From positions 1 to 64,000 of the forward strand of contig CANRGH010000003.1 of assembly GCA_947630135.1 (NCBI GenBank): a stretch of DNA of 64,000 nt, given 5' to 3'. The notes under the pieces are model-generated. The model saw nothing but the letters and a program-made list of their open reading frames with translations. It had not been told where the DNA came from and did no database searches. Below, piece after piece: positions 1 to 15,810 of this stretch (its first letter is position 1; every line of letters starts with the position of its first letter). The translations under genes were made by a program, and so were the position numbers. Source of the DNA: an uncultured Monoglobus sp. (lineage in GTDB: Bacteria; Bacillota; Clostridia; Monoglobales; Monoglobaceae).

Positions 1-1024
1 TTCAACTCACACGCCTCTGCGAGGCGTGACCATACCTTTGTTTACACAAGATAGGGATTTTGTTATTTCAACTCACACGCCTCTGCGAGGCGTGACCTCC
101 GTCCCTCGCGCTATGAGGAAGTTTGTTATTATTTCAACTCACACGCCTCTGCGAGGCGTGACCTGAGCCATTTGATTTGAATAACGATGAACAATTTATT
201 TCAACTCACACGCCTCTGCGAGGCGTGACGGCAACTGCAAGCAGCAGTTTTTCACTCGGCGAATTTCAACTCACACGCCTCTGCGAGGCGTGACCTTCTG
301 TATCGTTGATTTTGAAACGGCAAAGCCTTATTTCAACTCACACGCCTCTGCGAGGCGTGACCAGACACGAAAACAAGGAGCAGGAGCGATTCAAAATTTC
401 AACTCACACGCCTCTGCGAGGCGTGACCCCGGCGACACAAGTCTTTTATATTTTTCATACAATTTCAACTCACACGCCTCTGCGAGGCGTGACATAAGGA
501 TTTATACTATGGCTTCATGTCCAAAACAATTTCAACTCACACGCCTCTGCGAGGCGTGACTTTATCGCGTGGCAGACAATGATGAAGTTGAAAACATTTC
601 AACTCACACGCCTCTGCGAGGCGTGACACTGCATACAGCTTGGAACGGGTACGAACGGCAATATTTCAACTCACACGCCTCTGCGAGGCGTGACGCAATC
701 ATGGCCGGAGGTCAGTCGATTTGGCAATTTCAACTCACACGCCTCTGCGAGGCGTGACAATATGTGGCAAAAAAGCTGAACATCAAGGTTTCAATTTCAA
801 CTCACACGCCTCTGCGAGGCGTGACGCGCCGCACTCGCCGCAAAATAAAATTCCCGACAAATTTCAACTCACACGCCTCTGCGAGGCGTGACAGCAGCAG
901 CTCTTCTGCTGCCGCTCGGCAGGGCCATTTCAACTCACACGCCTCTGCGAGGCGTGACTCAAGGTGAACAATACCTTGATTTTATCCTGCAGATTTCAAC
1001 TCACACGCCTCTGCGAGGCGTGAC
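1..1024 (-). CRISPR. Type I-C CRISPR array, 16 repeats / 15 spacers in window
   Basis: Sixteen copies of a 32-nt repeat are visible, all identical by eye; the first is cut by the window edge and the last is 993-1024. Repeat starts are 65, 131, 198, 263, 330, 396, 462, 529, 596, 663, 727, 794, 861, 927 and 993. Spacers are 32-35 nt. Read on the minus strand the repeat begins GTCACGCC, has an 8-bp stem CACGCCTC/GAGGCGTG with a 3-nt loop, and ends with the 11-nt handle TGAGTTGAAAT. This matches the known type I-C pattern (GTCGC...GTTGAAAT), so crRNAs are read from 1024 towards 1, away from the cas genes. The array continues past the left edge. Short open frames across it are artefacts of the repeat. 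Confidence 0.99.
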
Positions 1025-1168: not shown

Positions 1169-1459
1169 TTACAATATCAACGCGCCCTCCGGGTCGTAGG
1201 TCGATTTGGCACCTATATGCTCAACGCGTCTTTTCCAATTATTGCCGAGATAGTATATTCTGAGGCTGTCCTTATCGTTGTCAATAATTTTTTCAAGTCT
1301 GTCTTTCAGCTTCAGAAAGGTTGAATAATCAACATCAACCTCAAAAACCGAATTCTGCACACGCTGGCCATAGTTAAGACATTCCTTGGCGACCTTTCTG
1401 AGTCTTCGCTTTCCCGCGGAGTCGATCGTTGACACGTCATAGCTCACAACGCACATCAT
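1169..1459 (-). CDS. cas2: CRISPR-associated endonuclease Cas2
   Basis: A 96-residue protein of normal Cas2 length with the N-terminal beta-strand motif VVSYDVS, whose aspartate is the conserved metal-binding residue of the family. Cas2 dimers bridge two Cas1 dimers in the complex that inserts new spacers. The gene is the last of the cas operon, 12 bp after cas1, and is followed by the leader and array on the same strand, the usual type I-C order. The start has a gene-end-proximal purine-rich RBS. Nothing looks damaged, so adaptation is probably functional. Confidence 0.97.
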   Translation of the reverse strand: MMCVVSYDVSTIDSAGKRRLRKVAKECLNYGQRVQNSVFEVDVDYSTFLKLKDRLEKIIDNDKDSLRIYYLGNNWKRRVEHIGAKSTYDPEGALIL

Positions 1460-1471
1460 AATTTTGCTCTC

Positions 1472-2494
1472 CTATTTTACGATATAGCACGGATATTCCT
1501 CGATTTCGCCGCGGATATATTTCGCGAGCAGCATGCTTTGCGCGTACGGCAAAAGGCCAAGATCTATCTTTTGTTTAAGGTAGGGATGCACAATATCGGT
1601 GCGTTTTTTCTCCTGCCACTTTGAAAGTATCTTCTTTTTGCCGTCAATGTTAAGGAATACCGCTCCGCTGACCTGTGTTTCAAAGTCATCCGCGTTTAAT
1701 ATTTTCAGGTTGATCATAGTCAGAACAAATCGTTCTATAATGCAGCGGCTTTCTTCAACAAGATCACACGCGAGCGAAGCGCGGCCCGGACGAACGGAAT
1801 GATAAAATCCCATATAACTGTCAAGGCCCACGCTTTCAAGCGCTGAGGCATAGTCGTTTGTCCAGATCGTATACAAAAATGACAGAACGGCGTTTACCCT
1901 GTCAAGCGGAGGACGTTTCGTTCTCATTGAGAACTTAAAGTCATTCTTTTGGTGCAGTATCAAGCTGTCAAAAATATCAAAGTAGGCCTTTGCACCCTGC
2001 CCTTCTATCCCGAGAATTTCGTTTATATCTTGGGCTTCATACACGTTTTCTATGTATTGATCAAGCAGCTCGATGCAATGCGAAAGGCTGCCGTCGGAAT
2101 TTATTGACGGATAATCCTTCAGTGTTCGTTTCACGACGCTTCTCGTGTTTGCCATTTTGGCGGCGACCACATTCTGCCGCAGCAGCGCGGGAGGATCCGC
2201 GAATTGCTCAAACTGCGCTTTTCTCAGCAGTATATTGCCGTGCGCCGGCCCGTGAATGCTCGCGAGAAAACGGCCGTGAGGGGATATGAAGCTTATCGGA
2301 ATACCATACTCCGCGCATTTCCCCATTAAAGCGGGCGAGCATCCGAGGTAGCTGAAGCAGTAAACCGCCTCAATGTTTGAAAAAGGAAGTCTGAGCTTAA
2401 TTTCATTATCCTTCCTGCATACGATATTTTCTCCGTCAAGAGTGAGATATATATTCTCATCTGTTATATACAGTGAGTTCAAAAGCTTTCTCAT
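1472..2494 (-). CDS. cas1: CRISPR-associated integrase Cas1 (type I-C)
   Basis: A 340-residue protein, full length for type I-C Cas1. The C-terminal helical domain holds the metal-ligand set: a glutamate in ILGIEGQGAK, the histidine in MGFYHSVRPG and the acidic residues in LACDLVEESR. Cas1 with Cas2 catalyses spacer integration at the leader end of the array. The start codon overlaps the end of cas4 by 4 nt (ATGA type), indicating translational coupling. The N-terminal beta-rich domain (about residues 1-80) and the long helical domain are both present and uninterrupted. Confidence 0.98.
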   Translation of the reverse strand: MRKLLNSLYITDENIYLTLDGENIVCRKDNEIKLRLPFSNIEAVYCFSYLGCSPALMGKCAEYGIPISFISPHGRFLASIHGPAHGNILLRKAQFEQFADPPALLRQNVVAAKMANTRSVVKRTLKDYPSINSDGSLSHCIELLDQYIENVYEAQDINEILGIEGQGAKAYFDIFDSLILHQKNDFKFSMRTKRPPLDRVNAVLSFLYTIWTNDYASALESVGLDSYMGFYHSVRPGRASLACDLVEESRCIIERFVLTMINLKILNADDFETQVSGAVFLNIDGKKKILSKWQEKKRTDIVHPYLKQKIDLGLLPYAQSMLLAKYIRGEIEEYPCYIVK

Positions 2495-3138
2495 ACGCGC
2501 TCCTCCTTAACAAGATTACGAACAGTGTATTTTTTATTCTGAGGAATACAAACATTTTTCATTGAGCAGCCGCTGCACTTCTGCCCTTTGACCCGATCCG
2601 GTATCTTTCCGCTTTCAAGAACTTCGTTCATCTCAAAAAGCAGCTTTTGCAGCAAAGAATAGTATTTGTCATACTCCTCGTTAAGATCGAGCTTTACCCT
2701 GCGGTGCGTGTCGCCATAGTATATATATCCCGTGCTTTTGCATTTCCATATATGATCCGCGCAAAGCTTTTGCGCAAAGACCTGTATCGCGTCGGTTTCG
2801 TTTACTGTTCCGGAAGCGGGGCGGCGGGGCTTATACTCAACGATATTAACATTGAAATTGTCGTCGAGCTGCTCTATGTAAGCCCCGGTTTTGCTTCTTA
2901 TGAATTCAACACAGTCCGCTACGCCGTACAGATCGAGCTCGTCGTGATAAAGCGAGACCGAGCTGAGCTCGATTTTTTCTTTTGAATGACGCTCATGCAT
3001 ACCCGAATGGACGCGCTCGTGCATGATGTTCGCCTTCACGACAAAAGCGTTTTCCGCCCAGTCTTGGTTTAACTCGAGCAGCCCGAAGCGGCGCGGACAG
3101 TACATATAGTGTTGAATAGCGCGAATATTTATCATCAC
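2491..3138 (-). CDS. cas4: CRISPR-associated exonuclease Cas4 (RecB-like)
   Basis: A 215-residue RecB-family nuclease. The N-terminal cysteine lies in YMYCPRRF. The C-terminal cluster CSGCSMKNVC with the earlier cysteine fits the four-cysteine iron-sulfur site of Cas4. Nuclease residues are seen in YGVADCVEF and NIVEYKPRRP (the D...EYK signature) and the QVFAQKLCA motif. Cas4 trims prespacers and helps select those with a correct PAM, working with Cas1-Cas2. It overlaps cas7c upstream and cas1 downstream by 4 nt each, consistent with a coupled adaptation block. Confidence 0.97.
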   Translation of the reverse strand: MMINIRAIQHYMYCPRRFGLLELNQDWAENAFVVKANIMHERVHSGMHERHSKEKIELSSVSLYHDELDLYGVADCVEFIRSKTGAYIEQLDDNFNVNIVEYKPRRPASGTVNETDAIQVFAQKLCADHIWKCKSTGYIYYGDTHRRVKLDLNEEYDKYYSLLQKLLFEMNEVLESGKIPDRVKGQKCSGCSMKNVCIPQNKKYTVRNLVKEERV

Positions 3139-3998
3139 AGCTTTTCGATAAGAGTTACGCCCTCGGGCATATCTTTGTCAACGGCGATCTCGTAATCCTC
3201 ATAATTTCTCGGGCACTCAATTCCGGCTTTCTTCTGGATCGTTATCTTATCAAACAAAACATGCGACGGAGCGTTTCCGAGTGGGCTTTCATGCTTGAAT
3301 ATCAGGAGCTTTCTCATGCACATTTTGCCGCGCGCCGCGCTGTGATCATGCTCGAACATATTGATTATTGCAGTCCAGAGCAGCTCAAGATCATCTTCCG
3401 ATAAACTCGTGACCTTCTGCGCGAGCATTGCCGACACATAACCCTCGGCCTTGTAGAGGCCATAAGGTACAATGTTCTTTTTTCCCATTTCGGTCTCGCC
3501 GCTTTTCATCCTGTCATTTGTTGTTTTTGCCTGTCTTGTGATCGTAATATCCTGAGTATATACCGGATCAACGCTTCTGGCGAAGTTGATCTGGACCGGG
3601 CCGCGAACGATGCCGCACGGATCTTCGCCTGTGTTCATTACCGCGCCGAACGCGCGGACATCAAAGTAGTTTTTGCACATATAATCGCGCGCCTGTCTGA
3701 CATCATCGGCGTTTTTGCCCTTTTGTCCTGTCTTAAGGCCTTCGGCTTCATATGCTTCGGTAAATTTGGAATTGAGCGACCTATCCGATTTTATCAGTAT
3801 ATTGTACCCCGGCTCGCCTTCCTTGCACAGCTCGACAAAATTACGTATTTTTCTCTTTAAGCAAACATCTGTGACTATGCCGTGCGTTGTTTCCGGATCA
3901 ACTCTCGGCATATTGCCCGCGTCCGGATCACCGTTGGGATTTCCGTTTTCAACGTCAAAAATCATTATAAACTCGTATCTGTTATTAATTGCTTTCAT
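3135..3998 (-). CDS. cas7c: Cascade backbone protein Cas7c (Csd2)
   Basis: A 287-residue Csd2-type Cas7. The N-terminus RYEFIMIFDVENGNPNGDPD is the signature glycine/asparagine-rich strand and loop of the family. Copies of this protein polymerise along the crRNA spacer and form the Cascade backbone. I place the start at the ATG at 3998, just 3' of the cas8c stop and behind AAGGAGAG; a longer in-frame reading to 4055 would run into cas8c and has no RBS of its own. It lies between cas8c and cas4, the standard I-C position. Confidence 0.97.
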   Translation of the reverse strand: MKAINNRYEFIMIFDVENGNPNGDPDAGNMPRVDPETTHGIVTDVCLKRKIRNFVELCKEGEPGYNILIKSDRSLNSKFTEAYEAEGLKTGQKGKNADDVRQARDYMCKNYFDVRAFGAVMNTGEDPCGIVRGPVQINFARSVDPVYTQDITITRQAKTTNDRMKSGETEMGKKNIVPYGLYKAEGYVSAMLAQKVTSLSEDDLELLWTAIINMFEHDHSAARGKMCMRKLLIFKHESPLGNAPSHVLFDKITIQKKAGIECPRNYEDYEIAVDKDMPEGVTLIEKL

Positions 3999-3999
3999 T

Positions 4000-5814
4000 T
4001 TACATCTCTCCTTCTGTATTATTATTTTCGTTATTTTTATCTTTGAAAAAATCATGCCGCTGCTGATAGTAACCTATTATAAATCTGCCTTGGTCCTGCA
4101 GTGACAGCGTTGACGGAAATTCGGTTCCGAGCATGTCAATGATCTCGCCCATAAGTTTATTGTAATATATCGCACTTCCTGTTTTTTTGCCGGACTTACA
4201 TTTTTTAAGATGATTTTGAGCCAATTCTATCAGTCTCGGTAATACCAACATAGGTCTCGAGCACGCTGAAGAAAAATATGAATCCTTTATTGTTTTGTTA
4301 AGATCAGTATCCGCGGCGATCTTCTGGATGCGCTCGAGGACCGCGAACAGCCTTCCGCATAAATATGCTTCGTTTGTGTTTGTTTTGTCAAGTGCCACTT
4401 TAATTTCCTCCTCTTTTTGGTTTAATCTTAAATTTCTGTTTATATAAGCCTTTAATATTCCTGCCCGTACATAATTTATTATTTTATCTGTTTTGACTCT
4501 TCTGACTATTATTTCAAGCAGAGTATCGGGGTACCGCGTTCCGTTCAGTATAGCTCCGAAAACCGCCGCTATGACTGGTGCGGGCGTTTTTTCGTTTTGG
4601 TTTTTCGGTGACTTCATTTCATAAAGCATGCGCCAAATTGAAATTTGTTTTTTGGAGCCGTCGATCAGCATATCAGCCTGATGCCTGGCGGTGTTGGTAA
4701 AGATATCTCCGTATTTGTTGCGGTATATAAATTTCTGCGCGATCCTGGAGCTGTTCGGCGCAAGCCCCGTCACATAGAACATAACGTTTTCATCAAAATC
4801 CGCGGTCGATAAATCAACTTTTCTACCTTCGCTCAATGCATTTACGGCATTTGCGATCATTTCATTTACCTCAGACGCATCGGCTTTATCATCTTCAAGT
4901 CCGAACAAACTCATAAACGCATCGGTTTCCGCGCTGTCATCATTTGACATAGCCCAGAATACGACGGTTAGTTCCTCCAGATACATATGATGTTTCGGTT
5001 CTCTTATGAGAATATTCAGTGCTTCGGTGTAACGTTTCATAACATCTATGGATATCGAGCCGTTATATGACTGTTTTTTCCCGTATGATTCAAAAGCCGA
5101 ATTTTTAAAGCTCACAAGAAGTCCGCCCGAGGCTTGTCCGCCGAGAATTCCTTTTATTTTATCATGTATTCTTGCCATTTCAGACGGTTTGCCCGTCACC
5201 GCACATATGCCGTCAAATTTTTGATCGCCGTTGTTTGTGCTTGTTTTGACCTTTTGCATTATTTCACCGTTTTCGGAATGCAGGGTAATTTCCGGATGTC
5301 CGTCAAGGCAAAAGATAAAATACGCGCCGGAATATTCTTTGGCAATGTTCAAAAGATGCGAATTTTCTGTCTCATTCTCGGGCGCCCAGTTTTTGATAAA
5401 ATTCCTGTATGCCGTCACAATATCGGATGTCATATCCTCGGTGAATTGCAGATTATCTTCGGCAAAGCACTTGTGTGATTTTTTCGCCTTATCGGTCCTG
5501 TCCTCGGGAGTGAATATGTTTGATTGCTTATCATAATTCAAACCGAAAATATACAGCGGGCGATGCTCTATTATGTTCGCGTCGATCCCGGATTTCTGGG
5601 TCCGCTCGGGCAAAACTGCCTCAATGGGCATAAGCTTTGTTTTGCCGTTTTTATCGGGCGGCCCCTCTTTGCGCACATCTATAATATCGCTTATTGTTCC
5701 GTCGGGTCTAAGCATAATCATATGAGTGATTTTTTGCGATGAAGTTCCCGGCTGCGCGACCTCTCCCGCGTCGGCTAAAATATCGTAATAATCATTGAGC
5801 GCACTTATCAGCAT
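4000..5814 (-). CDS. cas8c: Cascade large subunit Cas8c (Csd1)
   Basis: A 604-residue Csd1-type large subunit that recognises the PAM and stabilises the R-loop in type I-C Cascade. The start is the ATG at 5814, giving MLISALNDYYDI, which overlaps the cas5c stop region by 7 nt; the reading frame is open further upstream but there it only shadows cas5c. The protein carries typical Csd1 segments such as the N-terminal small domain and the long helical C-terminal half. In many I-C systems an internal start within cas8c also makes a small subunit (Cas11c), so an internal RBS near the 3' third is worth looking for. Confidence 0.95.
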   Translation of the reverse strand: MLISALNDYYDILADAGEVAQPGTSSQKITHMIMLRPDGTISDIIDVRKEGPPDKNGKTKLMPIEAVLPERTQKSGIDANIIEHRPLYIFGLNYDKQSNIFTPEDRTDKAKKSHKCFAEDNLQFTEDMTSDIVTAYRNFIKNWAPENETENSHLLNIAKEYSGAYFIFCLDGHPEITLHSENGEIMQKVKTSTNNGDQKFDGICAVTGKPSEMARIHDKIKGILGGQASGGLLVSFKNSAFESYGKKQSYNGSISIDVMKRYTEALNILIREPKHHMYLEELTVVFWAMSNDDSAETDAFMSLFGLEDDKADASEVNEMIANAVNALSEGRKVDLSTADFDENVMFYVTGLAPNSSRIAQKFIYRNKYGDIFTNTARHQADMLIDGSKKQISIWRMLYEMKSPKNQNEKTPAPVIAAVFGAILNGTRYPDTLLEIIVRRVKTDKIINYVRAGILKAYINRNLRLNQKEEEIKVALDKTNTNEAYLCGRLFAVLERIQKIAADTDLNKTIKDSYFSSACSRPMLVLPRLIELAQNHLKKCKSGKKTGSAIYYNKLMGEIIDMLGTEFPSTLSLQDQGRFIIGYYQQRHDFFKDKNNENNNTEGEM

Positions 5815-6530
5815 TTCATCATCTCCTTGTATTTCGCGATGTCTATCACTCCGTCGATCATGTGTGGGCGGTAAAATACCGCGTCGGCCTTGTCGGAAAA
5901 CTTGCGGGCTTCCCAATCGTTGTCTTTCGGAATGCCGCCGTCTCGGAATTTCATGTGATAGAGCATAAAGCCGAGATCGGTGTCGCCTTTTAATTTGTCG
6001 GATACCCGTTCTGTCGGGAACTCGTCCACAAGCTCGATTTTTTTTACCGCGAACTCGCTGCATCCCAAAACCGGCTGTCTGAAATGCTGACCCTTTTTTA
6101 ACCTGCGGAGCATGATGTTATAGTGCTTTTCCTCGCTTTCGTCGTCATGCTCGCTCCTGATCCCGGTGAGTTCAAAATGAAATTCCACGCCGTACAGAAC
6201 GTCTTTAAGGACCATGCTGCCGCGCTGGCTAATGCTATCCTTGGTATAGATCTCCGCTCGCGGCTTGCCGTCCTTCATCTGCTTTTTCACATTTGAGAAA
6301 CTCACCTTGTCCTTAACCTCGTTGCGGCGAATGTTGACAAACTTAATAGGATTGAATACTATTATCTTGTCCACCACGATCCGCAGCGCAGGCTTCCAAT
6401 AAATGCTTTTAATAAGCCCTTCCATAGCTCCGGGCGTCGGCACGTCATAGCTCACCCTTTCGGTTTTCATCTCCGGCCGCGTGAAACACGCGTAATCGCC
6501 GCTTACCATAATTTTAAAACCGTATCCCAT
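5808..6530 (-). CDS. cas5c: crRNA-processing endoribonuclease Cas5c (Cas5d)
   Basis: A 240-residue Cas5d protein. In type I-C, which lacks Cas6, this protein cuts pre-crRNA at the base of the repeat stem and stays on the 11-nt 5' handle. The N-terminal RAMP strand (VSGDYACFTRPE) and the segment IYWKPALRIVVDKI followed by NIRRNEV are characteristic. Its predicted product handle TGAGTTGAAAT is seen in every repeat of the array and exactly in one repeat of the mini-CRISPR near 8918. It starts 11 bp after cas3 and overlaps cas8c by 7 nt. Confidence 0.96.
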   Translation of the reverse strand: MGYGFKIMVSGDYACFTRPEMKTERVSYDVPTPGAMEGLIKSIYWKPALRIVVDKIIVFNPIKFVNIRRNEVKDKVSFSNVKKQMKDGKPRAEIYTKDSISQRGSMVLKDVLYGVEFHFELTGIRSEHDDESEEKHYNIMLRRLKKGQHFRQPVLGCSEFAVKKIELVDEFPTERVSDKLKGDTDLGFMLYHMKFRDGGIPKDNDWEARKFSDKADAVFYRPHMIDGVIDIAKYKEMMKC

Positions 6531-6541
6531 ATCGTCCTCCT

Positions 6542-8719
6542 TTATATGATTAAATTAAATTCTTTTTTTATATCAAGCCCGGTCTCCTTGCTGTAATATT
6601 CGGGAGCGGAAAGCATATAAATATTGCCGTATAAATTTTGTACTGTTCCGCTCTCGACCATATAATCAAATTCATATTTGTTGACCGAAGCGCAGTATCG
6701 CTGCAGCTTTCTCATTGCCGAGCGTGCGCCGTATTTTAAGGATTTTATAAGCTCGGCGTTTTCCTCGCACGGGATAACTATGCCGACAGTTTCCTTTTCG
6801 ATAAACTTAAACCTCTGCGCGTAAGACCTGAAAGGAATCCCGGACACTCTCATATCTCCGCCCATCATCTCGGTTATTGAGTTGGTTTCGATCTCTTTGT
6901 CCGAAACGGCGAATATTCTGTCATAATACTCCTGCACCGCCTTTTGGGAAGAAATGTTTTCAAATTCCTCAAAAAGCTTTCTTGTTATGTTTGCTTTGAC
7001 TGCGATCTCTCTGTGCAAAGGTCCGAGTTCAAACACAAATACGTTTCCGGAGTTCATTCTGCCCTCGCGGTTGCAGCGCCCGCCGGATTGCACTATGTTA
7101 TCAAGCCCCGCGATCTCGCGGAATACCGATTTGAAGTCAAGGTCCACGCCCGCCTCGATAAGCGAGGTCGATATCACGACAGTTTTTCTTCCGTTATCAA
7201 GGCTCGCTCGTATTCTGCTTATGGTATCAGACCTGTCAAGAGGCGTCATGTAAGTTGATAAGTGGTATACCTCGTGATCTGCCGAGGTTTTGCATATATT
7301 GTAAAGTTCTCTCGCCGTGCTTTTTTTGTTGACTATCACCAGTGCGTTTTCCTGCTCGAGCGCTTTTTCCGCTATGGAGCCTAAATCGTTTTGCCCGATA
7401 TATTGATATTTGCATTTATCGAAAATTCCGAAAAGACGCTTGTCCTTAACCGCGTATTCAATCGTGCTTTGCGGAATAAATTTTTCGGCAAAGCGTGTGT
7501 AGTCGGGCATTGTCGCAGACATCAGAATAGCGGTGGAGTGAAGATACTTTGTGATATATCCTATCCCGCGCAGACACGGCTGGATATATTCAACGGGCAG
7601 AGCGTGTATCTCGTCGAAAACAAGCACGCTCTCGGCGAGATTATGCAGCTTTCTGAGCCTGCTGCTCTTGTTGTGGTAGAGCGACTCGAAAAACTGCACG
7701 TTGGTGGTTATTATCAAAGGCGCGTCATAGTTTTCGCAAGCCTTTTTTAATTTCTCGTTCGTTATTCCGCTCTCGTCGGCTGCCTTCTCGGGATCGTCAA
7801 AGTCATAATTTGAATGGTGCTGCAAGACAGGCAGAGAGCTTCCGAATATATTTTCAAAGACTTCCGCCGTCTGCTCAATTATGCTTGTGTACGGCATAAT
7901 GTAAACGATCCTCTTTTTGTCTTTTTTGATCGCCAGCTGCAGAGCCGCTTTTATGCTGCAGAGAGTTTTTCCGCTGCCGGTGGGCATGTCGAGCATGTAT
8001 ATATCAGCGTCGCCGTTTTCCACGCAGTCATATACTTGGCTTTGAATGACGCTCCGCACATTTTGCAGAGCGGTTTCGCATTTAAATCCGTCAAGCTTCG
8101 CGCAGACCTTTTTATATGCGGCGATAATATCACCGTCAAGGCCACGTTCGGTATCGGGAGCGCAAAATCGCTCGGTGTCTATGAAGTCGGCGTCAGTGAG
8201 GCAGGAGTAAAAATACCTCGTAAAAAATGAGTAAGCCTCAATCCTCTCCTTATTATCCGGCAATTTTTTTAACTCTTCAAACAAAAAATCGTCCGGGAAC
8301 CAATCGCCGATTTCTTTATCAAATTCGGAGCAGTCATATAGCTCTCTTTTCAACATGCCGTTCAGAGTCGACTGTTCGGGATTGTCGTTTCGCACGCCTC
8401 CGTCCGGCAATCCCGCGTGATGACCGCAAATGCAATAGGCAAGCATATCGGCATATGATGTTTTGCAGTTATTTTTAATGCGCGATGCTCCGAAACGCGC
8501 GTGCTCGACCTTTTGACCCGAGCCCCTGATATATCTCTGAAACTTGGGCGAGTACTTCCCCAAGTCGTGATAAAGGCCGCAGCAGCGCGCAATATCCTTA
8601 AACTCGGTCACTGCGTTTTCGGCGCTTAGCTCCGCTGTTTGTTCAAGATGTTCCTTAACGCTCTGCACCCTGCCGTCATCTGCCGTGTGCGCTATGTAAG
8701 TATTGGAATCTTCAGACAT
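6542..8719 (-). CDS. cas3: CRISPR-associated helicase-nuclease Cas3 (HD fused)
   Basis: A 725-residue single-chain Cas3, the translocating helicase-nuclease recruited by target-bound Cascade. The HD nuclease domain shows HD at residues 51-52 and a His pair at 100-101. The SF2 helicase shows Walker A MPTGSGKT (245-252), DEIH in place of DEAH (369-372) and SAT (401-403). It is the first gene of the operon. Its ATG is preceded by AGAGGAG. The predicted mRNA leader is only about 41 nt, and it contains the match to the spacer of the nearby mini-CRISPR. Confidence 0.98.
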   Translation of the reverse strand: MSEDSNTYIAHTADDGRVQSVKEHLEQTAELSAENAVTEFKDIARCCGLYHDLGKYSPKFQRYIRGSGQKVEHARFGASRIKNNCKTSYADMLAYCICGHHAGLPDGGVRNDNPEQSTLNGMLKRELYDCSEFDKEIGDWFPDDFLFEELKKLPDNKERIEAYSFFTRYFYSCLTDADFIDTERFCAPDTERGLDGDIIAAYKKVCAKLDGFKCETALQNVRSVIQSQVYDCVENGDADIYMLDMPTGSGKTLCSIKAALQLAIKKDKKRIVYIMPYTSIIEQTAEVFENIFGSSLPVLQHHSNYDFDDPEKAADESGITNEKLKKACENYDAPLIITTNVQFFESLYHNKSSRLRKLHNLAESVLVFDEIHALPVEYIQPCLRGIGYITKYLHSTAILMSATMPDYTRFAEKFIPQSTIEYAVKDKRLFGIFDKCKYQYIGQNDLGSIAEKALEQENALVIVNKKSTARELYNICKTSADHEVYHLSTYMTPLDRSDTISRIRASLDNGRKTVVISTSLIEAGVDLDFKSVFREIAGLDNIVQSGGRCNREGRMNSGNVFVFELGPLHREIAVKANITRKLFEEFENISSQKAVQEYYDRIFAVSDKEIETNSITEMMGGDMRVSGIPFRSYAQRFKFIEKETVGIVIPCEENAELIKSLKYGARSAMRKLQRYCASVNKYEFDYMVESGTVQNLYGNIYMLSAPEYYSKETGLDIKKEFNLII

Positions 8720-8733
8720 TGTTTATTTCTCCT

Positions 8734-8753
8734 CTCTTTAGAAATTAATATGT
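8734..8753 (+). promoter_or_regulatory. Predicted target of the mini-CRISPR guide in the cas3 leader
   Basis: The plus strand reads CTC at 8734-8736 and then TTTAGAAATTA at 8737-8747. The mini-CRISPR spacer (minus strand, 8917 to 8897) starts with the same 11 bases, differs at position 12, matches again at 13-17 (8749-8753) and differs from 18 on. Position 12 is one of the every-sixth bases that type I effectors flip out and do not read. CTC, from memory, is an accepted weaker I-C PAM besides TTC. The site lies about +8 to +24 from the predicted cas3 start and abuts the Shine-Dalgarno sequence. Confidence 0.8.
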
Positions 8754-8766
8754 AAAATGTAAATTA

Positions 8767-8795
8767 ATAGTAGCACAGTTATTATATTATGTCAA
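8767..8795 (-). promoter_or_regulatory. Promoter of the cas operon
   Basis: Minus-strand TTGACA (8790-8795), 17-bp spacer, TACTAT (8767-8772). Predicted start near 8760, giving a 41-nt leader to the cas3 ATG. No other promoter is obvious inside the tightly overlapping operon. Confidence 0.85.
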
Positions 8796-8860
8796 GTCCT
8801 TTTTTTAAAAAATTTTATTATATTTCCCATAGGTCTGTTTTACTTGATAAATAACATGAA

Positions 8861-8966
8861 ATAAAAACTCACGCGCCCCCTTTGTGGGGACGCGACAACA
8901 ACATAATAATTTCTAAAATTTCAACTCACGCGCTTTTTAAAGCGCGGCTGATCCTTTTCGGGATCA
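8861..8966 (-). ncRNA. Mini-CRISPR: candidate Cas-regulating guide RNA (CreR-like)
   Basis: Read on the minus strand this holds a 5' hairpin TGATCC/GGATCA (8949-8966), degenerate repeat A (8948-8918), a 21-nt spacer (8917-8897) and degenerate repeat B (8896-8861). Repeat A keeps the exact 11-nt handle TGAGTTGAAAT and an 8-bp stem CGCGCTTT/AAAGCGCG whose sequence differs from the array stem, so the stem is conserved by compensation. Repeat B has a 9-bp stem CGCGTCCCC/GGGGGCGCG with one G-U pair and a changed handle TGAGTTTTTAT, which makes it look like a terminator. The spacer matches the cas3 leader. Processing by Cas5c and loading into Cascade are inferred. A simple decayed array is less likely, because the stems, the handle, the promoter and the target match are all kept. 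Confidence 0.85.
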
Positions 8967-8971
8967 ATTAT

Positions 8972-9000
8972 ATTATATCATAATCGCGCAAAAGTGTCAA
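8972..9000 (-). promoter_or_regulatory. Perfect consensus promoter of the mini-CRISPR
   Basis: Minus-strand TTGACA (8995-9000), exactly 17 bp, TATAAT (8972-8977). Both boxes match SigA consensus perfectly, stronger than the cas3 promoter itself. The predicted start is at 8966-8964, so the RNA would open with the small hairpin and enter degenerate repeat A within about 20 nt. Confidence 0.9.
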
Positions 9001-9090
9001 CACGGTTTACATGTCGCATTTTTGATTTTATTATAACATATTTTATTTACAAAAAAATGTACATGTTTTCTCGAGACATAACAGCGCGGT

Positions 9091-9112
9091 GCCGGGACAA
9101 AAACGCCCCGGC
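9091..9112. other. Stem-loop without a U-tract
   Basis: GCCGGG (9091-9096) pairs with CCCGGC (9107-9112) across a 10-nt A-rich loop. It lies between the mini-CRISPR promoter and the small gene at 9155. Neither strand has a good T-run after it, so it is at best a weak terminator. I see no gene in 9001-9154. Confidence 0.4.
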
Positions 9113-9154
9113 CTCGCATCGGTTTGAGAAGAAAAATTTTAATATAGGAGATTT

Positions 9155-9385
9155 TTATTTATAAAATGTAATTTTTTCACCGTTTGACAGGGTGCAGGTG
9201 TGCTGATTGAGTCCTTGCTGCGGTTTGCTCACATACGGCTTGTTGGTTCTGACGTCTCTGAGACCGGTGTTTGACGGGTATGAGTCATAGCCTTTGCTTA
9301 TCGCCCATTGCCGCATCTCTATATCCTGATTAGTCTCTTTAATTAATTGATAACCGAAATAGATTATCGCGATAAGTATCATCAT
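9155..9385 (-). CDS. Small membrane-anchored protein of unknown function
   Basis: A 76-residue open frame behind a good RBS (GGGAGGAAT) at the right distance from the tandem ATG codons at 9380-9385. Residues 2-14 are hydrophobic (MILIAIIYFGYQL) and probably one N-terminal membrane segment; the rest is polar with the C-terminal stretch CTLSNGEKITFYK. I do not recognise the family. It lies on the same strand as the cas operon and the mini-CRISPR, 155 bp upstream of the mini-CRISPR promoter. No intrinsic terminator is clear after it. It could be a regulator or toxin-like peptide, but nothing in the sequence shows that. Confidence 0.6.
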   Translation of the reverse strand: MMILIAIIYFGYQLIKETNQDIEMRQWAISKGYDSYPSNTGLRDVRTNKPYVSKPQQGLNQHTCTLSNGEKITFYK

Positions 9386-9467
9386 TTTTATTCCTCCCGT
9401 GAATTGTTTTTTGTTTATGATATAAGTATATCATGGGCGGTGTGCAAAAAATTGCGCCGGGAAAATA

Positions 9468-9496
9468 TTGATTAAAAATAATTTTTATGGTATAAT
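9468..9496 (+). promoter_or_regulatory. Promoter of the acetyltransferase gene
   Basis: TTGATT (9468-9473), 17 bp, TATAAT (9491-9496). The predicted start is about 18-20 bp upstream of the TTG start codon, and the RBS GGAGG lies at 9508-9512, so the leader is very short. Confidence 0.85.
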
Positions 9497-9520
9497 CGCT
9501 ATAATACGGAGGCGATAAAA

Positions 9521-10108
9521 TTGACAGAAAAAGAAAAAGCGGCGCTGGGATACTTATACAACGCCAATTATGACAAGGAAATTCTGGCTGACATCAGCCG
9601 CTGCAATGATATATGCTTTGAGTTTAACAAGCTCCGCCCGTCCGATCGCGGCGCGCAGGAAAAGCTGCTTCGGCAAATTTTCGGCAAGGCGGGCGAAAGC
9701 CCGATCGTGAACGCGCCGTTTTGGTGTGATTACGGATACAACACAACGGTCGGGGACCATTTTTTTGCCAATCGCAACTGCCAGATCCTGGACGGCGGCA
9801 AGATTACGTTTGGCGATAATGTTTTTATCGCGCCCAACTGCTGCTTCACAACGGCGGAGCATGCCCTCGACCCCGATCAGAGGAAAGAGGGGCTTGAGGT
9901 CGCCCTTCCGATAACCGTCGGCAGCAACGTCTGGATAGGCGCGGGCTCAACGATCCTGGGCGGCGTCACGATCGGCGACAACTCGGTCATCGGCGCGGGC
10001 TCTGTGGTGACAAAAGACGTTCCATCGGGAGTTATCGCGGTCGGCGTTCCGTGCCGCGTTATGCGTGAGATCACCGAGGCCGACAAAGACCGTTACCCGC
10101 ACAGATAA
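9521..10108 (+). CDS. Maltose/galactoside O-acetyltransferase family protein
   Basis: A 195-residue left-handed beta-helix acetyltransferase of the Maa/LacA type. The N-terminal helical cap (residues 1-55) resembles the maltose acetyltransferase cap domain. Hexapeptide repeats follow (VGSNVWIGAGSTILGGVTIG and neighbours), and the catalytic histidine is H114 in TTAEHALDP. Such enzymes move acetyl groups from acetyl-CoA to sugar hydroxyls; the real substrate is not readable from sequence. It starts with TTG, chosen because GGAGG sits 8 bp upstream. Its GC is higher than that of the island genes that follow. Confidence 0.9.
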   Translation: MTEKEKAALGYLYNANYDKEILADISRCNDICFEFNKLRPSDRGAQEKLLRQIFGKAGESPIVNAPFWCDYGYNTTVGDHFFANRNCQILDGGKITFGDNVFIAPNCCFTTAEHALDPDQRKEGLEVALPITVGSNVWIGAGSTILGGVTIGDNSVIGAGSVVTKDVPSGVIAVGVPCRVMREITEADKDRYPHR

Positions 10109-10193
10109 TGATAAAAAACGGATTGAACGGCATAGTAGGTTTTGTGATATAATACGAAAAGTACAAATCGGAATTTGGAGGGGCGAAAAAATA

Positions 10194-10892
10194 ATGAGAA
10201 AAGTAATCGGTGTCATGCCGCTTTATGACGATGAAAAAAAGAGCTACTGGATGCTGCCGGGATACATGAAAATGTTGGAGGCGGAAAACGCTATACCATT
10301 AATGCTGCCTCTTACTTCCAAAACAAAGGAGTTAGATTATTTTCTTGAAATATGCGGTGGATTTCTGCTGACCGGCGGCCATGATGTGTCTCCGACCGTT
10401 TATCATGCCGAGCGCAAACCGTGGTGCGGCCCATGCTGCAAATTACGGGATGAAATGGAGCGATATATCTTAACGAATGTAGTAGAAATGGATAAATCTG
10501 TGTTAGGTATCTGCCGGGGTATTCAATTTATGAATTCTCTCTATGGCGGGACTTTATACCAAGATTTAGCAACAGAGAATAACAGTTGTGTCAACCATCA
10601 CATGAAGCCGCCGTACAACAGGGCGGCACATCAAGTCACAATACTAACCGATACGCCACTCTATGATATTTTAGGCAAGGAGCAAATGGGAGTAAACAGC
10701 TATCACCACCAAGCGATCAGAAAGCTGTCGCCTGCATTTAATAAAATGGCAATATCGGAAGACGGCTTAATTGAAAGTATATATATGCCGTCTCATAAGT
10801 TTATAGTGGGTGTTCAATGGCATCCTGAATTTTCATATGATGTTGATGAAGACAGTAAAAAGCTGATAAATGCTTTCGTAGCTTCGATTTAA
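10194..10892 (+). CDS. Class I glutamine amidotransferase-like (gamma-glutamyl-GABA hydrolase family)
   Basis: A 232-residue peptidase C26 / PuuD-type protein. The nucleophile is C107 in LGICRGIQF and the rest of the triad is H210 and E212 in VQWHPEF. Family members cleave gamma-glutamyl amides such as gamma-glutamyl-GABA; the substrate here is unknown and no polyamine genes are nearby. The start is the ATG at 10194 behind GGAGGGG; the frame is open upstream but lacks an RBS. A TATAAT box lies at 10148-10153, and the leader contains the motif AAATCGGAATTTGGAGG shared with other units of this island. Confidence 0.9.
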   Translation: MRKVIGVMPLYDDEKKSYWMLPGYMKMLEAENAIPLMLPLTSKTKELDYFLEICGGFLLTGGHDVSPTVYHAERKPWCGPCCKLRDEMERYILTNVVEMDKSVLGICRGIQFMNSLYGGTLYQDLATENNSCVNHHMKPPYNRAAHQVTILTDTPLYDILGKEQMGVNSYHHQAIRKLSPAFNKMAISEDGLIESIYMPSHKFIVGVQWHPEFSYDVDEDSKKLINAFVASI

Positions 10893-10937
10893 CAATTTCC
10901 CGTTTGTAGAGCGGATAAAAACTGAACATCACAATCC

Positions 10938-10964
10938 GGAGCAATCGCAAAGTTGCTCTTTTTT
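10938..10964 (+). terminator. Terminator, island copy 1
   Basis: GAGCAA (10939-10944) pairs with TTGCTC (10953-10958), then six T. This is the first of five near-identical GAGCAATCGA...TTGCTC terminators in the 10.9-15.3 kb island. Confidence 0.85.
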
Positions 10965-10972
10965 GCGAAGTA

Positions 10973-11015
10973 TTGATTTTTTTTCGGCGGGCATGATATG
11001 ATTATTCCGTAATCA
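10973..11015 (+). promoter_or_regulatory. Promoter with palindromic operator, island copy 1
   Basis: TTGATT (10973-10978), 18 bp, TATGAT (10997-11002), overlapped by the dyad TGATTA-TTCCG-TAATCA (10999-11015). Two more copies with 17-bp spacing and longer arms occur at 11790 and 14344. Confidence 0.75.
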
Positions 11016-11062
11016 AACAGAACATTAACTTGGTGTTTGCGTAAAGGAGTGGATGTAATATT

Positions 11063-11698
11063 ATGTATTATTATCATATGACAGCGTTAAACAATCTTTG
11101 TTCTATTGCGGCACAGGGATTGGTGCCTAAAAATGAAACTAACGGCAAACTGATCGGAGATGAAAAAATTAAGGTATTTTTCTCTGAAGGATTTGAGGGC
11201 GCGATTGCTCTATATGTGGATTTTGATATTGTATTTCGTAGAATACGAAAAGAGCAGATGAATGCGGCAGATGAGTCCGTAAAAAAGAAAGTTCTGAAAT
11301 CGAACAATCTCTCTGATTTTTTGGGCGAGGGAGTTTATTTACGGTTTGACGGAACAGGAATCAAGAATGAAAGAAATTTTGAAAACGGCTGTACCGATAT
11401 GACGATCATGCCCGAAAAAATAAGTGTATGTGTCTTGCGAAACGAACATGATAATTCGATTATATTCTCAAGATTTGAGATAATTAAATACATGATGGCG
11501 AAAACTAAGCCCGAACAGATAAAATACTATGGAGCAAGCTATAAAAACTCGCCCGGTTTTTTAGAAGCAACAAGACGAATACAAGAAAAAGTGAAAAACT
11601 ATTATAAAGACCATCAAACAGAGATCGCACAATATGATAATTGCGTTTTCATATTGGATTTTATTGACTTAAAAGACTTTGTTGATAAATTCTTATAA
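11063..11698 (+). CDS. Hypothetical protein, possibly ADP-ribosyltransferase-like fold
   Basis: A 211-residue soluble protein behind AAAGGAGTGG. I do not recognise a named family. The N-terminus (YYYHMTALNNLCSIAAQGLVP) resembles in pattern the His-start and NL-x-SI-x-x-x-GL segment of several ADP-ribosyltransferase-fold proteins, but the match is loose and the claim is weak. A later motif is YFxF-like, FFSEGFEGAIALYVDF. The gene is AT-rich, a single-gene unit with its own promoter and terminator, which suggests recent transfer. There is no partner antitoxin next to it. Confidence 0.6.
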   Translation: MYYYHMTALNNLCSIAAQGLVPKNETNGKLIGDEKIKVFFSEGFEGAIALYVDFDIVFRRIRKEQMNAADESVKKKVLKSNNLSDFLGEGVYLRFDGTGIKNERNFENGCTDMTIMPEKISVCVLRNEHDNSIIFSRFEIIKYMMAKTKPEQIKYYGASYKNSPGFLEATRRIQEKVKNYYKDHQTEIAQYDNCVFILDFIDLKDFVDKFL

Positions 11699-11751
11699 AA
11701 CAATAATTCAGATCCTCATTTGACAAGCAAAAATTTGAATACCGCGATCGA

Positions 11752-11778
11752 GAGCAATCGAAAATCGGTTGCTCTTTT
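11752..11778 (+). terminator. Terminator, island copy 2
   Basis: GAGCAA (11752-11757) pairs with TTGCTC (11769-11774), then TTTT. It is preceded by ATACCGCGATCGA, which recurs exactly before the terminator at 15250. Confidence 0.85.
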
Positions 11779-11789
11779 GTTCCGCCGTG

Positions 11790-11831
11790 TTGACTTTTTG
11801 CGGTTGGTATGGTATGATTATTTCATAATCA
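11790..11831 (+). promoter_or_regulatory. Promoter with palindromic operator, island copy 2
   Basis: TTGACT (11790-11795), 17 bp, TATGAT (11813-11818), overlapped by the perfect dyad TGATTAT-TTC-ATAATCA (11815-11831). The motif GATAAATCGGGATTT follows near 11840. The transcript to the ATG at 12048 would have a leader of over 200 nt, in which I see no clear gene. Confidence 0.8.
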
Positions 11832-12047
11832 AAAAGAACGATAAATCGGGATTTGAATTTGTCAAAATCTTAGATTGTTACTACCCGATATAGAGTGATA
11901 TTATAATCCTCCAAAAGCCTTGAAACTAAAGGATTTATCGCAGTTTACTCACCTTGTTCCCTTACATGGTTTCACACGAATTTACCTTCGCCCTGCATCT
12001 AATAAGGGCGAATACAAGGGAAAATTGCAGAAAGTGCAGGAAAGAAA

Positions 12048-12599
12048 ATGAAATTATTATTTATGATTGGAAATGCCGCTGTGGGCAAAATGACCGTCGG
12101 CCAAGAGTTGGCGAAAATAACCGGGTTGAGATTGTTTCACAATCATATGACCATTGAACCGGTCATTAAAATTTTTGGACAGTATAACGGCGCAGCGATA
12201 AATAGGCTTCGTCAGGTTGTGTTTGAGGAGTTTGCCAAGACGGATAATTATGGGATGATTTTCACCTATATGTGGGCTTTTGACCAGCAGTCTGACTGGG
12301 ATTATGTGGAGTATGTAAAAAATATTTTTATGCCATACGATACGGAGTTCTACTATGTAGAGCTTGTTGTCTCCCGTGAAGTTCGCTTAAAGAGAAACGC
12401 AACGGATAATCGCCTTCAAAATAAAGTGTCAAAAAGAAATGTTCCGGTGTCCAACCAAAGACTGATAGATGATGATAAAAAATATCGCCTTGAGAGTATG
12501 GACGGGGAAATTCCATTTGAAAATTACATGAAGATTGACAACACAAATCTTGCGCCTGATGTTGTTGCGCAGATGATAAAAAATCAATTTGATCTTTGA
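12048..12599 (+). CDS. P-loop kinase-like protein (AAA family, shikimate-kinase-like)
   Basis: A 183-residue protein with an N-terminal P-loop MIGNAAVGKMTVGQEL, residues 6-20. The residue after the lysine is M with T next, a variant seen in a group of small AAA-type putative kinases. An LFHNHMTIEPV segment (about 29-39) fits the substrate or NMP-binding region of that group. No characterised substrate is known to me. It starts at an ATG behind AGGAAAG. It is another single-gene unit of the AT-rich island, with a repeated motif AAGGGCGAATACAAGGGAAAA in its leader that recurs degenerately after the gene near 12740. Confidence 0.7.
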   Translation: MKLLFMIGNAAVGKMTVGQELAKITGLRLFHNHMTIEPVIKIFGQYNGAAINRLRQVVFEEFAKTDNYGMIFTYMWAFDQQSDWDYVEYVKNIFMPYDTEFYYVELVVSREVRLKRNATDNRLQNKVSKRNVPVSNQRLIDDDKKYRLESMDGEIPFENYMKIDNTNLAPDVVAQMIKNQFDL

Positions 12600-12857
12600 T
12601 TCAAATAGCGGATGTTCTGAGTACAAACTATAAGTTTGCGCGAGGGGGTGTATTTCGCTCTCAAATGTCGGGAGCGGATTACTTTCCGAAAAAAGTAGCT
12701 TGGCATTTGAATCAATGAATCCCCTTATTTCGTCTCGTAAGGGCAAAAACAAGGGAAAACACATGGGATTTGAGCTTTTAACAGGCGAAACGCCTTGGAA
12801 TGACAGGGCTTTCAGAGGACGACTAAGATAAATCGGGATTTACGGAGGCGAGATGTT
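12600..12857 (+). other. Non-coding gap with partial repeat of the kinase leader
   Basis: No gene seen. It contains GTAAGGGCAAAAACAAGGG (12739-12757), a degenerate copy of the kinase leader motif near 12003, and then GATAAATCGGGATTTACGG at 12829 shared with the other island units. The mix suggests past recombination between unit boundaries. Confidence 0.5.
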
Positions 12858-13291
12858 ATGATAAGAGAAATTGCAGAAAACGATTTTGACGGTCTTTTGT
12901 CGCTTTATATGCAGCTGCACGATAATCCTTTCCCAGATAAGGATAACAGAATTATAGCAATATGGAATAATATTCTTAATGACAAAAATCATCATATAAT
13001 AGTTGCGAATGAAAACGGTATTTTGGTATCCTCTTGTGTATGTGTTATTATTCCGAATTTGACACGAGGACAACGTCCATACGCTCTGATTGAAAACGTT
13101 ATTACCGACAAAAAATACAGAAAAAGGGTTATGCGACAGCTTGTTTGAATTTTGCAAAAGAAATTGCCAGGCGCGAAAATTGCTACAAGATGATGCTGCT
13201 GACCGGTTCAAAAAATACAGACACCCTATATTTTTATGAACAGGCGGGATATAACAAAAATGATAAGACGGCTTTTATACAATGGCTGTAA
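12858..13291 (+). pseudogene. GNAT acetyltransferase broken by a single frameshift
   Basis: Frame 1 gives residues up to KKYRK then reads RVMRQLV and stops at 13148. Adding one A in the run at about 13121-13126 restores the acetyl-CoA motif YRKKGYATACLNFAKEIARR and then a good GNAT C-terminus (MMLLTGSKNTDTLYFYEQAGY) to a TAA at 13289-13291. The break therefore sits exactly in the CoA-binding loop. It is either a true one-base deletion, a phase-variable A-run or a sequencing error. The RBS (ACGGAGG) and leader are intact. Confidence 0.85.
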
Positions 13292-13332
13292 TTTCCCGTT
13301 TGACGAGCAGATAAAACAAAATACGACAAAAA

Positions 13333-13358
13333 GAGCAATCGACAGGTTGCTCCTTTTT
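13333..13358 (+). terminator. Terminator, island copy 3
   Basis: GAGCAA (13333-13338) pairs with TTGCTC (13347-13352), then C and five T. The stretch before it, ATTTCCCGTTTGACGAGCAG, is nearly the same as the one after the amidotransferase gene at 10895. Confidence 0.85.
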
Positions 13359-13402
13359 GCTGTACGCTTACGCTCCGTCCGAATTCTTGAACCGTAGCTG
13401 TA

Positions 13403-13425
13403 CGAAAATATAGATCATATTTTCG
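13403..13425. repeat. Perfect inverted repeat
   Basis: CGAAAATAT-AGATC-ATATTTTCG, 9-bp arms, in the 276-bp gap between the broken acetyltransferase and the small gene at 13568. It has no T-run on either side, so an operator or recombination relic is as likely as a terminator. I see no gene in this gap. Confidence 0.6.
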
Positions 13426-13567
13426 TTATGGTAGGGTTAAAGCATTTTATCTACACTCGAATTTTGTATCATGCGGAAATAAATTATTGTCCGCTGTTCA
13501 AAAAAATTTTCTGTTTTGCCATTTTGAATGACTCCTTTTTGAAAATTTATGAAAGATGATCAGAAAA

Positions 13568-13882
13568 CTATTGCGATATGAAATATTTGACTGTGTCTGT
13601 AAAATCATCACTGAACCCGGTAAGATCGTCAACGGTAATAGTTTCATCGTACAGCAGTGATAGAATATCCATAAACATCTTACTTTTTTGTACCTTTGCC
13701 AGAACTCCCGGTTTCTTTTTATCGGTTCTGATTCGTTTTTCCAATGCCCAAAATTTTTCGGAAGGAAGCTCGCTGCCGTTCAAAATTTTAACATACTCCC
13801 GAATCAGTCTCCCAATATGTCTTTCTTGCCATTCAGGCAATCTTTTTTTGAACAGTATCCAATCTTTTTTTGAAATTTCCAT
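13568..13882 (-). CDS. Small conserved Firmicute protein (often mislabelled multidrug transporter)
   Basis: A 104-residue soluble, charged protein starting at an ATG behind AGGAGG. The pattern DWxLFKKRLPEWQERHIGRL, then SEKFWALEKRIRTDKKKPGV, matches a widespread small family of Clostridia that databases sometimes call multidrug transporter, although no membrane segment exists. Function unknown. Residues 60-100 have a mostly helical, acidic tail. It runs against the direction of its neighbours. Confidence 0.75.
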   Translation of the reverse strand: MEISKKDWILFKKRLPEWQERHIGRLIREYVKILNGSELPSEKFWALEKRIRTDKKKPGVLAKVQKSKMFMDILSLLYDETITVDDLTGFSDDFTDTVKYFISQ

Positions 13883-13905
13883 ATATCCTCCTATAACATA
13901 AAAAA

Positions 13906-14025
13906 TTATTCACTCAAAGATAAATTCTCATTTGCTTTTTCACAAAATACGTCTTCGGCAAGCAAACAAGGAATAGCCGCTTAAATTGTTTTAACCGCTG
14001 CGTGATATTTTTCATTCATGTTCAT
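13906..14025 (-). pseudogene. Short gene remnant with an in-frame ochre codon
   Basis: Minus strand: MNMNEKYHAAVKTI, then TAA, then in the same frame AAIPCLLAEDVFCEKANENL and a final stop at 13906-13908. One nonsense codon interrupts an otherwise open 39-codon frame. It lies just upstream of the gene at 13568-13882. It may be the start of a lost gene; too short to name. Confidence 0.35.
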
Positions 14026-14143
14026 ACCCCAATTATCATAATATTTTCATATTCTCTTATTGATATTTTTATTATATCGTAAAATCGCAAAAAAAGCAAC
14101 ATCAATACAGAGATTAACTTTTTATAGGCTTCAATTACAAAAA

Positions 14144-14290
14144 ATGCCGAAATCCAGCTTGGCGGACGGAATGGATAAAATATTAGAAGTTTTCTTAAAC
14201 GAAGATATAAGTGAATATTTCTTTTGTAAAACACGAAATATGGCATATAGTGTTGAAATAAATATGTCATTCAGCTATGAGAGCAAATAG
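14144..14290 (+). pseudogene. Possible C-terminal gene fragment
   Basis: A 48-residue frame (MPKSSLADGMDKILEVFLNE...) without RBS or promoter, ending just before an island terminator. Residue composition is protein-like, so I read it as the tail of a degraded island unit. Low confidence. Confidence 0.3.
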
Positions 14291-14299
14291 CATAATCAA

Positions 14300-14329
14300 G
14301 AGTAATCGAAAAAACGGTTGCTCTTTTTT
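14300..14329 (+). terminator. Terminator, island copy 4
   Basis: GAGTAA (14300-14305) pairs with TTGCTC (14318-14323) with one G-U pair, then six T. It closes the remnant at 14144-14290. Confidence 0.8.
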
Positions 14330-14343
14330 GTTGTTCAGTCATA

Positions 14344-14385
14344 TTGCTTTTTTGCGACGGGTATGGTATGATTATTCCATAATCA
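14344..14385 (+). promoter_or_regulatory. Promoter with palindromic operator, island copy 3
   Basis: TTGCTT (14344-14349), 17 bp, TATGAT (14367-14372), overlapped by the perfect dyad TGATTAT-TCC-ATAATCA (14369-14385), then GATAAATCGGAATTTACGG near 14393. It drives the PhzF-like gene. Confidence 0.8.
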
Positions 14386-14423
14386 AATATAATGATAAAT
14401 CGGAATTTACGGAGGAAACCATA

Positions 14424-15206: not shown

Positions 15207-15249
15207 ATTAAAGTTTGTCAAGCGGATAAAAACCGAATACCGCGATCGA

Positions 15250-15273
15250 GAGCAATCGAAAGGTTGCTCTTTT
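15250..15273 (+). terminator. Terminator, island copy 5
   Basis: GAGCAA (15250-15255) pairs with TTGCTC (15264-15269), then four T. Preceded by GCGGATAAAAACCGAATACC, the shared 3' tail of the island units. Confidence 0.85.
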
Positions 15274-15297
15274 GCTTAAAAATTTTTAATAAGCATA

Positions 15298-15326
15298 TTG
15301 ACTAACGATAACAAATATGTTATCAT
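15298..15326 (+). promoter_or_regulatory. Toxin-antitoxin promoter with operator
   Basis: TTGACT (15298-15303), 17 bp, TATCAT (15321-15326). A perfect dyad GATAACA-AATA-TGTTATC (15307-15324) covers the spacer and -10 box, the expected place for autorepression by the Xre antitoxin downstream. Confidence 0.85.
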
Positions 15327-15349
15327 ATAACAGAAAGAAGGTGTATAGG

Positions 15350-15478: not shown

Positions 15479-15492
15479 AGGAATGATGCTAT

Positions 15493-15780: not shown

Positions 15781-15810
15781 AAAACAATATTTGGGAGCAA
15801 TCGACAAAGA

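Follow-up and report, generated by a model that had tools for sequence, protein, structure and literature searches.

Upstream of cas3 in a contig of an uncultured Monoglobus sp. (CANRGH010000003.1), on the same strand as the cas genes, lies a short unit that resembles a one-spacer CRISPR array and whose spacer partly matches the cas3 leader. The question that this locus raises is what such a unit does beside its own cas operon. The window analysed here, the first 64,000 nucleotides of the contig, encoded a complete resident effector set (cas3, cas5c, cas8c, cas7c, cas4, cas1c and cas2) together with an array (Table 1). A profile search of the window placed the operon in subtype I-C, in agreement with the assignment made earlier from the sequence, as the Cas5c, Cas8c, Cas7/Csd2 and Cas1c models each exceeded their cut-offs; the I-C models were also run on loci L058, L083, L112 and L147. 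The array repeat at the start of the window, GTCACGCCTCGCAGAGGCGTGTGAGTTGAAAT, served as the reference for the degenerate repeats of the guide unit.

Table 1. Features of the type I-C locus, its array and the guide unit in the window.
Feature	Position	Strand	Basis or remark
Canonical I-C CRISPR array	1..1024	-	extends to the edge of the window
cas2	1169..1459	-	profile match
cas1c	1472..2494	-	model above cut-off
cas4	2491..3138	-	profile match
cas7c (Csd2)	3135..4007	-	model above cut-off
cas8c (Csd1)	4000..5832	-	TIGR01863, 399.5 bits
cas5c	5808..6530	-	11 nt past cas3; model above cut-off
cas3, first gene of the operon	6542..8719	-	profile and ORF
PAM-like CTC	8734..8736	+	complement GAG adjoins the cas3 Shine-Dalgarno sequence
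Guide target (protospacer strand), TTTAGAAATTAATATGT	8737..8753	+	just 3′ of the cas3 -10, in the predicted start/5′-leader region
Best-placed cas3 promoter	8767..8795	-	TTGACA-17-TACTAT, TG before -10, 10/12 consensus positions
Degenerate CRISPR repeat 2	8866..8896	-	stem 8894-8872, TGAG, T-rich tail; terminator-like
21-nt spacer (guide), TTTAGAAATTATTATGTTGTT	8897..8917	-	pairs with 8737-8753 at positions 1-11 and 13-17
Degenerate CRISPR repeat 1	8918..8948	-	repeat comparison; stem mostly kept by compensatory changes
5′ stem-loop at predicted RNA start, TGATCCCGAAAAGGATCA	8949..8966	-	fold prediction; similar in relatives by eye
Guide-gene promoter	8972..9000	-	TTGACA 9000-8995, 17 nt, TATAAT 8977-8972; 12/12 consensus positions, TG before -10

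The unit was made up, in order, of a promoter, repeat 1, the spacer and repeat 2, all on the minus strand. The original prediction had described one spacer between two degenerate repeats on the cas strand, behind a perfect TTGACA-17-TATAAT promoter; these details hold, and the promoter agreed with the consensus throughout. Its hexamers and their spacing recurred, by eye, in the aligned genus relatives. The final 11 nt of repeat 1 (8928-8918), TGAGTTGAAAT, form the predicted 5′ handle, and repeat 2 doubles as a predicted intrinsic terminator with a 9-bp stem and the tail TGAGTTTTTA. Promoter-like sites in 8600-9500 numbered 11 against 3.2 expected from shuffles, terminator-like sites in the 901-base region numbered 3 against 0.8, and the guide RNA fold was more stable than those of shuffled sequences (z -3.9). 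An Rfam scan of 1-16000 returned three sub-threshold matches, none of them at the guide unit.

The predicted match of the spacer was also present, with mismatches at position 12 and at positions 18-21, and so was the CTC immediately before the target. The mismatch at position 12 falls on one of the every-sixth positions that are ignored by type I effectors. A distance of 18 nt separated the PAM-proximal end of the target from the downstream cas3 start codon, and just upstream of the best-placed cas3 promoter were two further overlapping promoter-like sites (8809-8781 and 8808-8781, both 10/12). A search of the 2,347,934-base genome for YTC followed by the 15 read positions gave a single exact match, in the cas3 leader. 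When as many as 3 mismatches were allowed, 8 places were found; after the exact match there was one with 2 mismatches and six with 3, the guide itself being among the latter, and a reversed control pattern gave 2 places. Since this was the only exact match in the genome and spacer and leader covary between species (see below), the match is not due to chance.

The unit very probably represents a CreR-like gene that autorepresses its own I-C operon via Cascade, a reading whose basis in the sequence is anatomy, pairing, covariation, conservation and distribution. As in CreR, two degenerate copies of the resident repeat adjoin the cas operon of the same system, and the complementarity to its own cas leader is partial and includes the seed at positions 1-5 and 7-11. 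From this we infer the following course. A short RNA would be transcribed from about 8965 towards cas3 and, by analogy, cut by Cas5c at repeat 1 to leave the handle, with repeat 2 forming a 3′ hairpin and probably also the transcript end. I-C Cascade loaded with this RNA would pair with the target in three five-base blocks (1-5, 7-11 and 13-17) beside CTC and, bound just past the cas3 -10, would block RNA polymerase on cas3-cas5-cas8-cas7-cas4-cas1-cas2. Because pairing ends at position 17, presumably not far enough to open a full R-loop and allow cleavage by Cas3, the result would be repression and not self-destruction, and because the repressor would be Cascade itself, the operon would be autoregulated. 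By analogy with CreR, autorepression of the operon through Cascade is the most likely role of the guide RNA, and derepression by crRNA load or by anti-CRISPRs, carried over from published CreR systems, may be expected. Silencing of a gene in Neisseria by I-C CRISPRi, with a TTC-flanked guide over the -10, is described in an excerpt of PMC10865793.

The excerpted text of a 2026 review (PMC13131331) lists I-B, I-E and V-A as types with CreR autorepression, that of another (PMC12737573) attributes CreR to type I and V-A, and the primary paper (Liu et al. 2023, Cell Host Microbe) is cited in the excerpt of PMC12948488. In contrast to the types named in these excerpts, the unit described here belongs to I-C, with processing expected from Cas5c, and differs further in its cas3-first operon, its PAM-like CTC, a repeat 2 that is also the terminator, and pairing through position 17. 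Standalone repeat-like mini-arrays with a spacer that partly matches cas promoters, mostly of type I, were reportedly surveyed by Shmakov et al. in 2023 (NAR), and I-C cases may be listed there. No I-C autoregulatory guide was found among the titles and abstract openings of the literature matches listed, a search outside which both of these key papers (Liu 2023 and Shmakov 2023) fell.

The anatomy of the RNA is also like that of CreA, the RNA of CreTA. As described in the excerpt of PMC8501985, CreA shares the two degenerate repeats, or one repeat and a T-rich terminator, and the seed pairing at positions 1-5 and 7-11, which were shown there to be critical; it has a PAM at the target promoter, where the unit here has the PAM-like CTC. 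A CreA-type antitoxin would repress a hidden toxin (CreTA or CrePA) and so make the cell dependent on Cascade, and in two other genomes (G331 and G424) a guide of similar design finds its match before an ORF of ~45 codons instead of in the cas3 leader. However, CreA represses a toxin, as described in that excerpt, whereas the guide here targets the cas3 leader and its pairing extends through positions 13-17. The promoter targeted in the window does not drive a toxin, and the 18 nt between target and cas3 start codon leave no space for a gene, which makes a hidden antitoxin role very unlikely.

When 60 genomes, among them the Monoglobus genome itself, were searched at the DNA level, strong homologues were found in 6/11 genus relatives. 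Five of the 11 (G003, G005, G006, G007 and G011) had the entire unit and a cas3 leader that matches it, and these were the five whose Cas3 was 77-89% identical; no guide was detected in G009, a genus member with a Cas3 of 33% identity. The unit was also carried by G013, from another genus of the same family, and, on the opposite strand, by a Clostridia MAG (L052) with a Cas3 69% identical. CTC preceded the target in each relative that had both the unit and a matching target. The original prediction had proposed searching related genomes for a spacer and cas3 leader that co-vary, and six distinct pairs of this kind were found. Joint changes in these pairs occurred at positions 4, 5, 7, 8, 14 and 16 and never at positions 6, 12 or 18, position 18 being matched in 0/8 pairs; all three are every-sixth positions. 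The 15 read positions showed 1 mismatch across all pairs (G013, position 15), and among 720 permutations the true pairing alone had the lowest count, 1 mismatch where the mean was 15. As far as sequence comparison can argue, this covariation is strong evidence that the unit is a CreR-like guide.

In the set with whole repeats, on which they were counted, the repeat stems showed compensatory changes from G-C to A-T and from C-G to T-A, with one repeat-1 pair broken in L052; RNAalifold, run on 7 poorly trimmed units, gave 24 pairs, 0 of them changed on both sides. The guide of G003 has TAGAAAT, and its own array retains TTGAAAT. Two further relatives had altered units. In G010 (L007/L152), the sixth genus relative with a strong homologue, the guide promoter and repeat 1 ran into a 34-nt array-like spacer followed by another repeat, and this genome gave no cas3 match at E 1e-60; the arrangement is possibly a scar left when guide gene and array recombined and the cas operon was lost. 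In G021 (L028, about 1160-1300) the unit was decayed, with a spacer of ~11 nt, and by eye the cas3 leader was without promoter and target.

Guides were also present in other type I-C loci. The best 79 of at least 548 loci from named genomes were taken by a Clostridia-based Cas3 alignment, and 75/79 fetched loci had a Cas5c-like match; L053 duplicates the G013 record and L073 the G021 record, while L041 and L082 are distinct records. The stretch preceding cas3 was scanned in 104 loci in which it was at least 100 nt long (from the 79 together with family and class loci), and this gave 15 rows, comprising the genus cases, G013 twice, L057, G302, G331, L052, L068, L076 and L117. The L057 row was rejected as a palindrome. 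The control of 2,160 mispaired scans also gave 15 rows, or 0.375 per full set, and is conservative because close relatives share spacers.

A scan of whole loci at a strict threshold (at least 14/15 read positions matched) found a guide in 17/79 loci against 0.375 expected from 632 mispaired scans; the 15-position rule was set after the window had been seen, so that these and the subsequent counts are not blind to it. The remaining 62 loci had no guide at this threshold, and three rows from L129 were rejected as an array remnant. Four of the 17 guides were aimed upstream of cas3 (L052, L053, L068 and L117) and 13 between cas3 and cas5; cas5 could be placed in 12 of the latter, and there the target started 13 to 166 nt before it. 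Among the 79 loci, upstream-of-cas3 guides were all in loci with a cas3-cas5 gap of at most 51 nt (5/5, with L076 counted at 13/15) and gap guides all in loci with a gap of at least 164 nt (12/12, with the L122 gap left out), an association with a Fisher probability of 1.6e-4 for gap lengths derived from tblastn starts. In a looser test, 17/23 loci with gaps of at least 160 nt had a guide against 0.36 expected from 506 mispaired scans. G302, which is outside the 79 (L041, 1250-1470 and 3600-3800), departs from a simple gap-length rule: with a gap of ~220 nt it carried two distinct guides, directed at the cas3 and the cas5 leader, respectively, and each behind TTC. Three relatives of G331 (G243, G399 and G425) had an opposite-strand guide that matches the cas3 promoter. 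The central claim of the original prediction, a CreR-like guide by which I-C Cascade would be aimed at its own leader, is thus supported by covariation, by the every-sixth signature and by independent I-C guides.

A scan in which no PAM was imposed covered targets within 600 nt in 78 of the 79 loci (L073 omitted) and in 12 loci picked for earlier PAM-filtered hits, and its 672 rows were reduced to 30 pairs. The 642 rows rejected included 578 from N runs (L100) and copies of array repeats in L052, L085, L087, L129 and L130. The 78 fetched loci supplied 17 of the pairs and the 12 picked loci 13; only the 17 are free of selection bias, since the others come from loci hit by the PAM-filtered scan. 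TTC, CTC or CTT was found at 17/17 pairs from the 78 loci, and also at 13/13 from the picked loci, with totals over the 30 pairs of 17 for TTC, 9 for CTC and 4 for CTT. CTC or CTT accompanied every GAG-type handle and TTC every other handle (11:0 versus 0:15 distinct guides, p = 1.3e-7, a value that ignores relatedness; 6/11 GAG-type guides are one family of related units). This suggests that the motif is split by repeat type into two I-C PAM groups, CTC/CTT for GAG-type and TTC for GGA-type repeats, and the pattern is consistent with CTC as a working I-C PAM. The excerpt of PMC10865793 gives TTC and TTT for I-C and does not confirm CTC.

Over 26 distinct guides there were 12 matches at position 6, 3 at position 12, 7 at position 18 and 2 to 8 at positions 19-24. 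Complementarity dropped to background past position 17, single guides ending at 16 to 19; the PAM-free scan set no end to the pairing, and guides paired only through position 11 would escape it. Phage searches with the array spacers of L058 and L056 gave no match, and one with the array of the window gave one record, which had a solitary I-C repeat and no protospacer.

These results bear on the possibility that the unit is a decaying mini-array with a chance or recently acquired self-targeting spacer and no regulatory role. The degenerate repeats and short spacer fit such decay, as does the G021 unit, whose spacer is ~11 nt long and which, by eye, is not accompanied by a cas3 promoter or target. 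However, the six distinct pairs covary at read positions only, the hit rate far exceeds that of the mispaired controls and the PAM-like motif appears without being imposed, so that this explanation is even less probable than the antitoxin. It is equally improbable that the hairpins act in cis, as a leader or attenuator in a transcript reading into cas3, with the spacer match incidental. In favour of this, repeat 2 is terminator-like and the unit is on the cas strand; however, promoter-like sites for cas3 lie downstream of this terminator, and in L052, G243, G399 and G425 the guide is on the strand opposite cas3 and therefore absent from any cis transcript into it. The least probable reading, a Racr-like decoy competing with crRNAs for Cascade with leader pairing secondary, has in its favour that phage-borne solitary I-C repeats inhibit I-C according to the excerpt of PMC10651486 and that a similar solitary repeat was found in a phage record, yet a decoy requires no guide and covariation has kept the guide-target pairing. 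Racr, as described in that excerpt, is likewise a CRISPR-repeat-like RNA gene with its own promoter, but it is a virus-encoded solitary repeat, whereas the unit here is at a cas operon with a conserved guide-target pair. The unit occupied the cas locus in 5/11 genus relatives, with its guide-target pair conserved and not as a virus or plasmid gene, and its handle-plus-spacer pattern had 0 matches in viral_contigs.

With CreR-like autorepression as the preferred reading, we judge the chances to be evenly balanced that guide autoregulation is a common layer of I-C systems, at least in Clostridia. The guide would then track the leader that feeds the Cascade genes (the cas3 leader in compact operons, the cas5 leader where cas3 is apart, both in G302), ~17 positions or three Cas7 segments would be an evolved limit for silencing without Cas3 cleavage, there would be two PAM groups (GAG-type with CTC/CTT and GGA-type with TTC), and one lineage would have a CreTA-like module facing a small ORF. 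Type I-C is a common CRISPR subtype with uses in editing and silencing. If true, the presence of a self-limiting guide beside its operon would explain a low level of I-C and would predict that Cas protein surges when Cascade is occupied by crRNAs or anti-CRISPRs. The limit of 17 positions and the separation of PAMs by repeat type would be concrete rules, open to testing, for the design of I-C silencing that avoids cleavage.

The small ORF just mentioned was seen in G331 (L037, about 3820-4169) and G424 (L132), where a guide of similar design matched 15/15 read positions behind TTC before an ORF of 46 and 43 codons, respectively, similar by eye. The block of ORF, target and guide had opposite orientations with respect to cas3 in the two genomes, and the G331 ORF had no NCBIfam or Pfam match. 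It is possible that this block is an I-C module of the CreTA or CrePA type. The phage MT836150.1, a human-faecal contig (L154, 1013-1046), encoded one I-C-type repeat similar to that of the window, with the altered handle GAGAAGAAAT, between what by eye were promoter-like and terminator-like sequences. This solitary repeat is a candidate Racr, and the gene next to it presumably resembles HicA. Additionally, dispersed short repeat families (e.g. D4, D7 and D9) were present between genes near the CRISPR locus, in 10894-15277 of the window.
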